A DNA stretch of 64,000 nucleotides from NCBI RefSeq assembly GCF_021728415.1, contig NZ_JAKKDV010000001.1, positions 353,977 through 417,976 of the forward strand, written 5' to 3'. The notes below the pieces were generated by a model. It saw only the letters and a program-made list of their open reading frames with translations, made no database searches and was not told where the DNA came from. Every line of letters starts with the position of its first letter. The stretch's first letter is position 1. Below, in pieces: positions 18,432-21,270 of the stretch. The position numbers and the translations under genes are program-made. Origin of the DNA: Flaviramulus multivorans (lineage in GTDB: Bacteria; Bacteroidota; Bacteroidia; Flavobacteriales; Flavobacteriaceae).

Positions 18432-18439
18432 TATATTTG
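18432..18439 (+). promoter_or_regulatory. -7 element of the aspartic-protease-like gene
   Basis: TATATTTG is a perfect -7 element 15 bp before the ATG at 18455. A possible upstream TTG start at 18437 would lie inside it, which favours the ATG. Confidence 0.5.
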
Positions 18440-18454
18440 TTTAAAATTAATTTG

Positions 18455-18895
18455 ATGGAGTCGTTACAACAATTTCTTCTTGAAAAAGGATACTCAAAAG
18501 TAAAATTACACCTTACTAAAACAAATCATTTTGAAATTAAGGCTTCAATAAATGGGAAAAAAGGATTGTTTATTTTAGATACTGGTGCTTCAAGCTCTTG
18601 TGTTGGTTTTGAGGCTATTGAAACTTTTAAACTAAACGCTGAAGACTCATTAATTAAAGCTGCGGGTGCGGGTGCTATTGATATGGACACTAAAATGTCT
18701 AAAAAAAATAAAATAAAAATTGGCAAATGGTCTAACAATAAAGTTGTGCTTGTTTTGTTTAACCTAACCCATGTAAATACTGCACTTATAAATCACAACT
18801 CACAACCTGTTGATGGTATTATTGGTGCTGATATTTTAAAAAAAGGCAAAGCAGTAATAGATTATGAAAAGAAATATCTATATTTAAAACTGTAA
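18455..18895 (+). CDS. Clan AA (retropepsin-like) aspartic protease domain protein
   Basis: A 146-residue protein that is essentially one retropepsin-like fold. The catalytic-type motif LDTGASSSCVG lies near 41-51, and the C-terminal pattern DGIIGADILKKG near 121-132 matches the hydrophobic-hydrophobic-Gly motif of single-domain aspartic proteases. Such proteins must dimerise to build an active site. There is no signal peptide or transmembrane segment, so it is predicted cytoplasmic. Its substrate is unknown. The ATG start was chosen because the alternative upstream TTG overlaps the promoter. Confidence 0.8.
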   Translation: MESLQQFLLEKGYSKVKLHLTKTNHFEIKASINGKKGLFILDTGASSSCVGFEAIETFKLNAEDSLIKAAGAGAIDMDTKMSKKNKIKIGKWSNNKVVLVLFNLTHVNTALINHNSQPVDGIIGADILKKGKAVIDYEKKYLYLKL

Positions 18896-18948
18896 AAATT
18901 TAGCAATTTTACTTTAGAATTAATCACATTTTAGCTCCCTAAAAATTA

Positions 18949-19581
18949 ATGAACACATCTATAGTCATTGCAGATGACCATCCGTTAATGTTACGCGGTC
19001 TTACCGATTTTTTAACCTCAAAAGGGTTTAATATTGTTGGGAGTGCGACAGATGGAAATAGTGCCTATAACCTCATTGTAAAACTAAAACCTCAAATCGC
19101 TATTTTAGATATAAGAATGCCTCATAAAACGGGGTTAGAAATTGCTGAAGCATGCAAGAAAAACGACTTACCTACAAAAATTATTCTTATCACTTTTGAT
19201 AAAGAAGAGGAAGTTTTCGATCAAGCAAAGGCTTTTAACGTTTATGGTTATATATTAAAAGAATTTGCTATTGAAGAAATTGAAACCTGTATTGAAAGCG
19301 TTGTAAATGGGGTTCCTTATTTTAGTGAAGAAATTGCCTCATATTTGGAAGCCAGTGATGAAGAGAATAAACCTGATGAATTAAATTTATTGACTAAGTC
19401 TGAATTAAAAATAGTAAAGCTTATATCAGAAAATAAAACCAGTCAAGATGTCGCCGATGAGCTGTCTATTTCGGTTAGAACTGTTGATAAACATCGAAGC
19501 AATATTGTTTCCAAATTAGGTTTAGATAATAAACCTACTTCTCTTTCTATTTGGGCAAGTTTAAATAAAAGACATTTGTAA
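18949..19581 (+). CDS. NarL/FixJ-family response regulator
   Basis: A 210-residue two-domain regulator. The receiver domain covers about 1-120, with the acidic pair at Asp9-Asp10, the phospho-acceptor Asp54 in AILDIRMPH and the conserved lysine in YILKEF. A LuxR-type helix-turn-helix follows at about 145-205 (LTKSELKIVKLISENKTSQ, VRTVDKHRSNIVSKLGL). No sensor kinase is adjacent, so it is an orphan in this window. Its stop codon overlaps the first copy of a 30-bp palindrome that occurs again 146 bp downstream, so it is a natural candidate to bind those sites. Confidence 0.93.
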   Translation: MNTSIVIADDHPLMLRGLTDFLTSKGFNIVGSATDGNSAYNLIVKLKPQIAILDIRMPHKTGLEIAEACKKNDLPTKIILITFDKEEEVFDQAKAFNVYGYILKEFAIEEIETCIESVVNGVPYFSEEIASYLEASDEENKPDELNLLTKSELKIVKLISENKTSQDVADELSISVRTVDKHRSNIVSKLGLDNKPTSLSIWASLNKRHL

Positions 19582-19623
19582 AAATACGTAGAAGTGCGTA
19601 TTTTTTATATCACTCTTATACAC

Positions 19624-19632
19624 TACATTTAC
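19624..19632 (+). promoter_or_regulatory. Predicted -7 element of small transcript 1
   Basis: TACATTTAC is a TAnnTTTG-like -7 element 15 bp after the first palindrome, at the same relative position as the element at 19770. Confidence 0.5.
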
Positions 19633-19635
19633 AGT

Positions 19636-19706
19636 GCTATTAATTAGTTCTTAGGGAGAATTATAGAAAGCTCCAAATTGTAATGATTTGGGGCTTTCGC
19701 CTTTTT
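19636..19706 (+). ncRNA. Candidate small RNA 1 of a twin locus
   Basis: A predicted transcript of about 70 nt from gctattaat to a T run at 19702-19706. It contains an unpaired GGGAGAAUUAUAG segment and then a 13-bp hairpin (19666-19678 with 19686-19698, one G-U pair) with loop UGUAAUG. No ATG-started frame is present. It aligns with the second cassette at the 5' end, the purine-rich segment and the loop. It may instead be an attenuator-like leader. Confidence 0.45.
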
Positions 19707-19769
19707 ATAAATACCCTATTTTAATAAAAATACGTAGAAGTGCGTATTTTTTATTTCTTCATTTGGTTG

Positions 19770-19778
19770 TATCTTTAC
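19770..19778 (+). promoter_or_regulatory. Predicted -7 element of small transcript 2
   Basis: TATCTTTAC lies 15 bp after the second palindrome, exactly 146 bp from the corresponding element of transcript 1. Confidence 0.5.
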
Positions 19779-19781
19779 TAA

Positions 19782-19846
19782 GCTATTAATCAACTTTTAT
19801 TGAGAGGAATTTAATGGAACTCTGTGTGTAATAGCACAGAGTTTTT
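19782..19846 (+). ncRNA. Candidate small RNA 2 of a twin locus
   Basis: A predicted transcript of about 65 nt beginning gctattaat, with GAGAGGAAUUUAAUGG and then a 9-bp hairpin (19818-19826 with 19835-19843, loop UGUAAUAG) and a T run. A five-codon frame MELCV starts at the AUG at 19814 after the GAGAGGAA purine run, and its UAA falls in the loop. The leader-peptide/attenuator reading is therefore possible. An outer pairing (ugagag 19801-19806 with cucuca 19850-19855) could extend the structure. Confidence 0.45.
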
Positions 19847-19880
19847 AATCTCTCATATTTAACGCCATAATTTTAAAACT

Positions 19881-19982
19881 ATGGAAAAAAATTATCAGAC
19901 ACTTACCAAATTCTGTTTTATAGGGTTAGCAATTTTAGTTGTTTCAATCATCTTAATAAATATTTTATTATTATTTAGTTAG
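19881..19982 (+). CDS. Possible 33-residue single-helix membrane peptide
   Basis: An ATG-started frame of 33 codons begins MEKNYQTLTKF and continues as one hydrophobic stretch of about 21 residues (FIGLAILVVSIILINILLL) before the stop. It could be a small membrane peptide, cotranscribed with the second small-RNA cassette by read-through. No Shine-Dalgarno or own -7 element is obvious. Its short length means chance cannot be excluded. Confidence 0.4.
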   Translation: MEKNYQTLTKFCFIGLAILVVSIILINILLLFS

Positions 19983-19999
19983 TTTTTAATTTTTCCAAC

Positions 20000-20039
20000 G
20001 AAAAAAGGTGTTGCAAAAAAAATGCAACACCTTTTTTTA
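20000..20039. terminator. Bidirectional terminator between the small-RNA region and sucB
   Basis: A 13-bp stem (aaaaaggtgttgc / gcaacaccttttt) flanked by A and T runs lies 20 bp past the sucB stop. It can serve both strands. Confidence 0.8.
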
Positions 20040-20058
20040 TGAATACAAGTGTATTAAA

Positions 20059-21270
20059 TTATAGCTCTAAAGCTTTTTTAACATCATTGTTCATTAACAA
20101 TTCTACAGGGTTTTCTAGTGCTTCTTTTACTGCAACTAAAAAGCCAACACTTTCTTTTCCATCGATAATTCTATGGTCATACGATAAGGCAACATACATT
20201 ATTGGTCTTATTTCAACTTTACCATCAACAGCAACAGGTCGTTCTACAATATTATGCATTCCTAAAATACCACTTTGCGGTGGATTGATTATTGGAGTAG
20301 ACAACATACTACCGAACACACCACCGTTTGAAATAGTAAATGTCCCACCTGTCATTTCATCAACAGTTATTTGGCCATCTCGTGCACGAATAGCTAATCG
20401 TTTTACTTCGGCTTCAACACCTCTAAAACTCAAATTTTCAGCATTTCGCATTACAGGAACCATGAGCCCTTTTGGACCAGAAACCGCAATACTAATATCA
20501 CAAAAATCATAAGAAACCATTTCTTGTCCATCAATCATAGAGTTAACTGCTGGATACATTTTTAACGCCCTTACAACTGCCAATGTAAAGAAACTCATAA
20601 ACCCTAAACCAACTCCATGCTTTGTTTTAAACGTCTCTTTATATTCGTTTCTCAACGCAAAAATAGGAGACATATCCACTTCATTAAAAGTGGTTAACAT
20701 TGCCGTTGTATTTTTAGCTTCAACTAAGCGCTCTGCTACTTTACGACGAAGCATTGACATTCTACTTCGCGAAGTTCCTCGATTTCCACCAGTTGGCGTT
20801 CCCATAGATGGTACTGCATTTACAGCATCTTCTTTGGTAACTCTACCGTCCTTACCCGATCCTGAAACAGTAGCAGCATCCATACCCTTTTCTGCCAAAA
20901 TTTTCTTAGCAGCAGGACTTGCTGTTCCTGTTGCATAGGTTTTTGTCTCAGAAGTTGTTGGTTTTGGTGTCTCAACTTTAGGAGCTTCTTCTTTTTTCTC
21001 ACTTTTAGGAGCGCTACTCCCTTCTGGTTTTTCTGCACTTGTATCGATTAAGCAAACAACTGCTCCAACAGCTACGGCGTCGCCTTCTTCAGCTTTCAGG
21101 GTAATTGTTCCACTTGCTTCTGCAGGTAATTCAAGTGTTGCTTTATCACTATCTACTTCTGCAATAGCTTGATCTTTTTCAACATAATCCCCATCTTCAA
21201 CTAACCACGTAGCAATTTCAACCTCTGTTATAGACTCACCTGGTGAAGGCACTTTCATTTCTAAAATCAT
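20059..21270 (-). CDS. sucB: 2-oxoglutarate dehydrogenase E2, dihydrolipoyl succinyltransferase
   Basis: The E2 core of the 2-oxoglutarate dehydrogenase complex, which transfers the succinyl group from E1 to CoA. In its 403 residues are one lipoyl domain (1-75, with the lipoylated lysine in [11 protein letters not shown]), an Ala/Pro/Glu/Lys-rich linker, an E1/E3-binding domain (about 115-150, [13 protein letters not shown]) and the catalytic acyltransferase domain ending with [11 protein letters not shown]. It follows sucA by 36 bp on the same strand. Confidence 0.96.

Follow-up and report, generated by a model that had tools for sequence, protein, structure and literature searches.

A response regulator, a tandem array of predicted small RNAs and a membrane micropeptide form a conserved module in Flavobacteriaceae

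The sequence analysed, referred to as the window, is a 64 000 nt stretch of the genome of Flaviramulus multivorans. The locus of interest lies between a gene for an aspartic protease and a convergent sucB-like gene, and comprises a gene for an orphan response regulator, two units that each combine an operator, a promoter box and a predicted small RNA, and a gene for a short membrane peptide (Table 1). The coding end of the clan AA aspartic-protease gene is visible just 5′ of the regulator in many relatives as well. Direct reading of the window confirmed the layout given in the original prediction, in that the first copy of a palindrome overlaps the stop codon (19579–19581) of the GerE-type regulator gene and, in both units, TAnnTTTAC lies 15 bp past the palindrome and is followed after 3 bp by gctattaat (at 19636 and 19782), all coordinates and spacings being correct. 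The 30 bp palindrome, TAAAAATACGTAGAAGTGCGTATTTTTTAT, is indeed present in two copies (19579–19608 and 19725–19754, 146 bp from start to start), but it is an imperfect inverted repeat, and the 26 nt operator sequence within it is 77 % self-complementary (a figure reported between the two copies).

Table 1. Genes and predicted features at the regulator locus, in window positions
Feature	Position	Strand	Support
Clan AA retropepsin-like aspartic protease gene, directly 5′ of regulator	18437–18895		Pfam
Stretch of regulator mRNA leader complementary to sRNA 1, CUCCCUAA plus AAUUAAU, reaching into AUG; putative feedback target	18935–18950	+	
Orphan NarL/FixJ-type response regulator (receiver plus GerE HTH), 210 aa	18949–19581	+	Pfam PF00072, 2.7e-23; PF00196, 1.7e-11
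Operator 1, predicted; core TACGTAG-AA-GTGCGTA at 19585–19600, 7-2-7 inverted repeat	19580–19605	.	
Bacteroidota-type −7 box of unit 1, TACATTTAC; 23 bp past operator core	19624–19632	+	
sRNA 1 (type A), predicted; 5′ end GCUAUUAAU	19636–19706	+	
sRNA 1, 5′ hairpin with AGG loop	19645–19663	+	Fold
sRNA 1, terminator hairpin, then U tract	19666–19698	+	Fold
Operator 2, predicted, identical to operator 1; core at 19731–19746	19726–19751	.	
−7 box of unit 2, TATCTTTAC	19770–19778	+	
sRNA 2 (type B), predicted, or leader of peptide mRNA; 5′ end GCUAUUAAU, weaker 5′ hairpin	19782–19852	+	
sRNA 2, terminator hairpin	about 19817–19844	+	
Single-helix membrane peptide, 33 aa, MEKNYQTLTKFCFIGLAILVVSIILINILLLFS	19881–19982	+	
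Perfect 15 bp inverted repeat with T runs, likely terminator between peptide gene and convergent sucB-like gene	20001–20037	.	

Each unit in the window reads as operator, 23 bp, TAnnTTTAC box, 3 bp and GCTATTAAT. The operators are inverted heptamers, TACGTAG-AA-GTGCGTA, that are separated by 2 bp and lie 5′ of the promoter in the 7-2-7 layout of NarL-type sites. The consensus heptamer for NarL is TACYYMT, while the heptamer found here is TACGYAS and the promoter is of a different type. The NarL 7-2-7 sites upstream of Escherichia coli napF and yeaR are located at −40 to −49 and −38 to −47, respectively (PMC4549865), and, as far as the available part of that source describes them, they share with the operators found here the inverted heptamers 2 bp apart and a position immediately 5′ of the start. 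In the 3.28 Mb genome (11 contigs), the core pattern TACGYASNNSTRCGTA was found three times, twice at this locus, and the palindrome is thus not a generic genome-wide repeat. At the third place (L011; G000:C5:340665), a near-box, TAACTTCG, is found 23 bp on and a small ORF, possibly a further target, is cut by the contig end. As the box of this third operator is imperfect, looser operator sites exist.

When 60 genomes (the F. multivorans genome and others from the same family and order) were searched for the strict operator-box pattern, 19 places were found in 11 genomes, and a reversed control pattern gave no matches in the same 60 genomes. Judged by position, 15 of the 19 lie downstream of a gene for a regulator of this family and within 0.6 kb of it, and these include all 12 of the places found in G000 (F. 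multivorans), G017, G019, G034 and G036 as well as those in G013, G028 and G029, the last two of which adjoin regulator paralogues of 43–44 % identity. The remaining four (two in G024 and one each in G008 and G005) are not in such a position. Hence, in genomes like that of F. multivorans, the exact operator-box pattern marks only the array.

Conservation was assessed by scanning named genome contigs with the regulator, which identified 306 relatives, and the best 80 of these 306 (66–89 % identity; among them Flaviramulus, Flavivirga, Algibacter, Lacinutrix, Oceanihabitans and Hanstruepera) were kept. A unit was recorded where an operator with no more than three mismatches was followed, at the fixed distance, by the TAnnTTTR box and GYTATTW. 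The regulator is followed by at least one unit in 81/81 loci, namely the window and the 80 relatives that are best by regulator similarity, with one unit in seven loci, two in 57, three in 11, four in three, five in one and six in two, and 74 of the 81 contain at least two units with the same operator. Because the loci were chosen by regulator similarity and share descent, these counts describe conservation and are not independent trials. Compared to TACGYANNNNTRCGTA, 148 of the 183 operators in the 81 loci have no mismatches, 34 have one and one has two. In all 153 strict operators (74 loci), the box is exactly 23 bp past the core, and GCTATT or a close form begins 4 bp after the 8-base box in 133, 5 bp in ten, 6 bp in five and 8 bp in one; a GCTATT-like start was not found past the box at the other four. 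The rigid spacing (153/153) and the linkage (81/81) support the original proposal of two paralogous RNAs under a dimeric and plausibly adjacent regulator. Seven loci with relaxed operators (L074, L080, L081, L083, L097, L114 and L117) are outside the strict-site, duplex-energy and leader-complement counts, and still hold units, that in L114 being weak by the RNA model (E 0.03). Arrays of the Lacinutrix/Oceanihabitans type with five or six operators were seen in L102, L107 and L109, and some of their units are nearly identical, which suggests recent tandem duplication.

The consensus of 77 aligned RNAs (alignment A1, picked by eye for diversity from 137 distinct RNAs) is GCUAUUAAUUAGUUCUUAGGGAGAAUUA followed by a variable terminator, and the first seven bases are invariant in this alignment. 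With units that had no terminator or one weaker than −8 kcal/mol left out, along with identical RNAs, the 137 distinct RNAs were sorted into 97 of type A and 40 of type B, which are without AGGGA near the 5′ end. The last unit of an array is often of type B. The fold of RNA 1 from the window has a free 5′ end, an 8 bp hairpin with the loop AGG and a 14 bp terminator hairpin (−23.3 kcal/mol); both RNA 1 and RNA 2 fold better than shuffled sequences (z −3.78 and −3.88, respectively), and two hairpin loops are seen in 6/6 RNAs folded. When the structure was placed on A1, 93.6 % of cells were paired compared to 42–57 % for slid structures, and none of 500 shuffles reached this value. The structure covaries, with two-sided changes in 19 of 22 pairs (five of eight in hairpin 1 and 14 of 14 in the terminator). 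Since RNAalifold run unaided on A1 gave the terminator helix only and did not predict hairpin 1, the support for this hairpin comes from the pair counts and from folds of single sequences.

Two features stressed in the original prediction need to be redrawn. The purine-rich segment, GGGAGAAUU, which was described as single-stranded, mostly forms the 3′ arm of an additional hairpin near the 5′ end, in which the loop alone is open. The UGUAAU loop that was described as kept is present in 30 of 144 terminator hairpins, and conservation is seen instead in the 5′ hairpin and in the 5′ end, GCUAUUAAU. A terminator hairpin was found in 144 of 149 units and all 153 strict sites have their own box, so that, by sequence, the units have the promoter and the terminator hairpin with U tract expected of an intrinsically terminated small RNA gene. 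Short frames ending at the UAA in the loop, which were seen by eye in the window only, were considered as leader-peptide ORFs and rejected because no start codon is kept in the relatives (by eye) and the loops vary.

In the F. multivorans genome, RNA model R1 matched the two window copies at E<1e-3 (5.5e-11 for RNA 1 and 4.7e-4 for RNA 2), values that are self-matches as R1 contains both RNAs, and the next match (E 0.025) is unlike them by eye. The RNA had not been assigned to a family originally, and Rfam also supplied none; above the gathering threshold, Rfam 15 found tRNA only in the window and only tRNAs, in seven of 12, in the relative loci, and the best sub-threshold match in 18850–20060 was rimP, at 23.7 bits against a threshold of 47.

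The 5′ end of the RNA, GCTATTAATTA, has an exact complement of 8 nt or longer in the 60 nt leader of the regulator gene in 33 of 74 loci compared to none of 180 control leaders, which were taken from other mechanically predicted ORFs (about 150 codons or longer, both strands) in the same loci. With at least 7 nt, the counts are 52/74 and 15/180. For the 5′ hairpin, complements of at least 10 nt are present in 10/74 leaders and 0/180 controls, and enrichment is only moderate at 8 nt or more (25/74 and 23/180). In the window, RNA 1 is predicted to form a 15 bp duplex (−17.5 kcal/mol) with CUCCCUAA plus AAUUAAU that extends as far as the U of the start codon, and RNA 2 hardly pairs with this leader (−5.8). 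The 5′-end complement in the window is 7 nt, a length reached by 15/180 controls, and it is the complement to the loop (8 nt) that fits. The duplex energy of the leader was in the best 5 % of background windows for 22 of the 74 loci and in the best 1 % for six (median 0.116), and in the best 5 % of shuffled leaders for 36; the values for the window are 0.059 and 0.07, respectively. The row for L101, in which the background mean is spoilt by unfoldable windows, was kept in these counts. The energies represent a moderate shift and are not proof.

An exact match to CUCCCUAA in all leaders was considered and discarded, as it is found in only three of the 80 relatives and the complementarity is longer, shifted and species-specific. 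As a genome-wide target pattern, TCTCCCTAA...ATG shows no enrichment in F. multivorans (2+1 matches compared to 5+3 for the control). In many loci, the two complementary stretches are ordered such that one RNA cannot fill both as a simple duplex, which implies single or alternative pairing. Overall, the match between the leader of the regulator's message and the RNAs suggests a built-in feedback loop. The multiple copies, the strongly conserved purine-rich hairpin 1 and the nearly invariant core across genera could also be features of protein-titrating RNAs of the CsrB/RsmY type, in which the AGG(G)-loop hairpins would sequester an RNA-binding protein or the ribosomal anti-SD with no pairing to mRNA. 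However, the unpaired 5′ end is as conserved as the hairpin and is the part matched by the regulator leader (33/74 compared to 0/180), and type B units (40/137 distinct RNAs) are without the AGGGA core. CsrA is also scarce in Bacteroidota, and we consider titration unlikely and pairing with mRNA the preferred reading.

Among sRNAs from the same bacterial family, the nearest known is Rfp18 of Flavobacterium psychrophilum, which was also the sole near candidate in the flavobacterial sRNA literature searched, as judged from the part of its description that was available. Rfp18 is, like the RNA found here, a conserved structured sRNA, and is required for correct levels of protease mRNA (PMC9723704). 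Identity or homology with Rfp18 would remove the novelty of the RNA family and leave the mechanism in place, but it appears quite unlikely, as pairing is predicted for a third stem-loop of Rfp18, which therefore has at least three, compared to two hairpin loops in 6/6 of the RNAs folded here (a comparison by description), and an array, an operator and a regulator are absent from the available part of the Rfp18 description.

Outside the family, the closest parallels are in organization. LhrC1–5 of Listeria monocytogenes are multicopy paralogous sRNAs with redundant pairing sites that are all LisRK-dependent (PMC4132741), and the array resembles them, as far as they are described in the part of that source available, in having several paralogous copies with the same operator, though control by one regulator is predicted in our case. 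LhrC pairs through CU-rich sites, whereas the loops here are purine-rich, and the array differs further in that it abuts the regulator gene, matches the regulator leader, ends in a micropeptide and belongs to a different phylum. A relationship to LhrC by sequence was covered only via Rfam, where no family was matched. In the Vibrio Qrr circuit, qrr1 adjoins luxO and Qrr represses luxO, the promoters are Sigma54/LuxO promoters and Hfq is involved, and we know of no tandem array behind the regulator; the locus studied here has a NarL-type regulator and a Bacteroidota −7 box. Qrr1–5 are several paralogous sRNAs with feedback onto the circuit regulator (PMC2680268), and within the available part of that account the array is similar in the paralogous copies and, if the putative feedback holds, would be so in the second respect too. 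Literal strings from the array do not occur in the literature searched, which covered few subscription journals. No RNA family open to comparison includes the RNA, which, by analogy, would work like the LhrC and Qrr circuits.

A short ORF with a strong hydrophobic stretch follows the array in 77 of 81 loci, compared to 5–10 of 81 with the same criterion in three control regions. It is 31–39 aa long in 72 of the 77, the others being 42–73 aa with upstream Met codons. A profile built from 16 of the peptides matches 75 of the 81 loci and none in each of three control regions; L112 and L117 have the hydrophobic ORF with no profile match, and L049, L084, L118 and L121 have neither. An Asn inside the helix is invariant in the 16 aligned peptides, and pN/pS is 0.19 over 74 pairs, which are not independent. 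The peptide in the window has no match in Pfam or NCBIfam.

The peptide ORF has its first ATG 60–271 nt past the last box (median 116 nt; 77 loci), and the peptide follows directly on the last promoter in L106, L111, L113 and L116. Because the last unit directly precedes the gene for a small membrane protein, the leader/attenuator unit that was originally offered as an alternative to a small RNA may fit this unit. Its extension to the whole array, with terminators that only tune the downstream membrane peptide and upstream copies that are decayed, functionless duplicates, is very unlikely, given that the invariant core and a separate promoter are retained in each of the upstream type A units though another unit precedes any peptide ORF, and that unlinked copies of the RNA are present elsewhere in relatives, at places outside the peptide search.

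Of 299 genomes sampled from the bacterial family, 86 have a match to R1 at E≤1e-3, representing 70 of 236 genera. In a class-wide sample, for which the filters were stricter and weak matches were lost, the F. multivorans genome was the only positive among 198, and the RNA therefore looks to be confined to the Flavobacteriaceae. With paralogues counted, 77 of 149 family genomes have a match to the regulator at E≤1e-40, and such matches are present in 44 of the 47 genomes that are positive for the RNA and in 33 of the 102 that are negative (Fisher 2.5e-13; two tables joined by hand on the assumption that both cover genomes G000–G148, with not all negatives listed). In L175 and L187, which are from genomes without a regulator match at E≤1e-40, the RNA is still located between the aspartic-protease gene and the sucB-like gene, and no regulator ORF of at least 60 aa is found at the locus. 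The first RNA copy in L187 has lost the operator and box.

A further 22 copies of the RNA are held by 20 stretches away from the regulator. For 15 of the 22, a different palindrome, TACTCAA-N-TTGAGTA, is in a like position (L155–L158, L161–L163, L165, L166, L168–L170 and L172–L174) and one copy has a variant of it; three have a site like TTACGG...CCGTAA (L160 and L167 twice), and at three there is no clear operator (L159, L164 and L171). More distant loci that are linked to the regulator carry TACGTAGTTCTACGTA or TACGTAACGTTACGTA. As the same RNA is found under several different operators, it is the control site that varies and the RNA core that stays constant. A gene resembling that for the PAS-GerE protein of L155 lies 5′ of the RNA and on the same strand in 12 of the 20 stretches (by motif search, with Pfam for L155 only). 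The 12 leaders of these PAS-LuxR genes have no clear complementarity to the RNA, with single longest matches of 8 nt for the 5′ end and 7 nt for the hairpin, and the same leader feedback was therefore not seen at these loci. In L155, L158 and L166, the RNA adjoins a murF-like gene (named by eye). The two copies in L167 are in one contig (1488–1562 and 8446–8520, minus strand) under the third operator type, and each is downstream of a duplicated response-regulator-like gene and a gene for a TPR protein with a weak kinase match; Pfam was run on one of the two gene sets, with receiver and HATPase below the cut-offs. Though the occurrence of the RNA under other operators and its persistence in some genomes with no regulator beside it would also be expected if another LuxR-type regulator controlled the array, with the adjacent one linked by chance or merely a target of the sRNA, this is very unlikely in view of the strong co-occurrence (44/47 compared to 33/102), the constant adjacency in 81 loci, albeit loci found via the regulator, and an operator with the 7-2-7 layout that NarL-type proteins recognize.

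From the operator-box-RNA geometry, the covarying structure, the conservation, the coding constraint on the peptide and the leader complementarity, we infer transcription of the units, binding by the regulator, the sign of the regulation, the feedback, the pairing and the role of the peptide as follows, with the adjacent regulator as activator. The orphan NarL-type regulator, once phosphorylated, would bind each 7-2-7 operator as a dimer and, with the centre of the operator approximately 43 bp upstream of GCUAUU, would activate the adjacent promoter. Unit 1 would then produce an sRNA of approximately 70 nt in which an exposed 5′ end, GCUAUUAAU, precedes a 5′ hairpin that has AGG(G) as its loop and then the terminator, and the last unit would produce a second sRNA and, by read-through or as the main product, the mRNA for the 33 aa membrane peptide. 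The sRNAs would base-pair via the 5′ end and the 5′ hairpin, and one conserved target would be the mRNA of the regulator itself, at its leader and start codon, leading to negative feedback. Copy number (one to six) would set the dose and let the paralogues diverge, and the peptide may act on a membrane sensor.

Judged from sequence comparisons, this is a real, conserved and, as far as our searches reach, undescribed module in which a regulator is combined with an array of sRNAs and a micropeptide. Beyond what was originally predicted, the analysis adds the micropeptide, the 5′ hairpin, the arrays of one to six copies, the leader complementarity and the copies under other operators. The response regulator probably acts mainly via the multicopy sRNA array and the micropeptide, with the sRNA feeding back on the regulator. 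More tentatively, and at somewhat less than even chances, the direct output of the regulator may be almost entirely non-coding, consisting of a self-limiting tandem sRNA array and a membrane micropeptide, and the sRNA core may have been placed, by exchange of operators, behind several unrelated LuxR-type regulators of the Flavobacteriaceae, such that different signals converge on one post-transcriptional effector.

To our knowledge, the regulatory RNAs of Bacteroidota have been little mapped outside Bacteroides and Flavobacterium. The module provides a testable family of sRNAs whose promoter site is defined, together with a candidate for the activator, another for the target in the neighbouring gene, and a micropeptide that had not been described. 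If the proposed mechanism is true, circuits built on multicopy sRNAs, as in Vibrio and Listeria, would have arisen here independently, and the module would be a natural case of one sRNA core that is common to several regulators.
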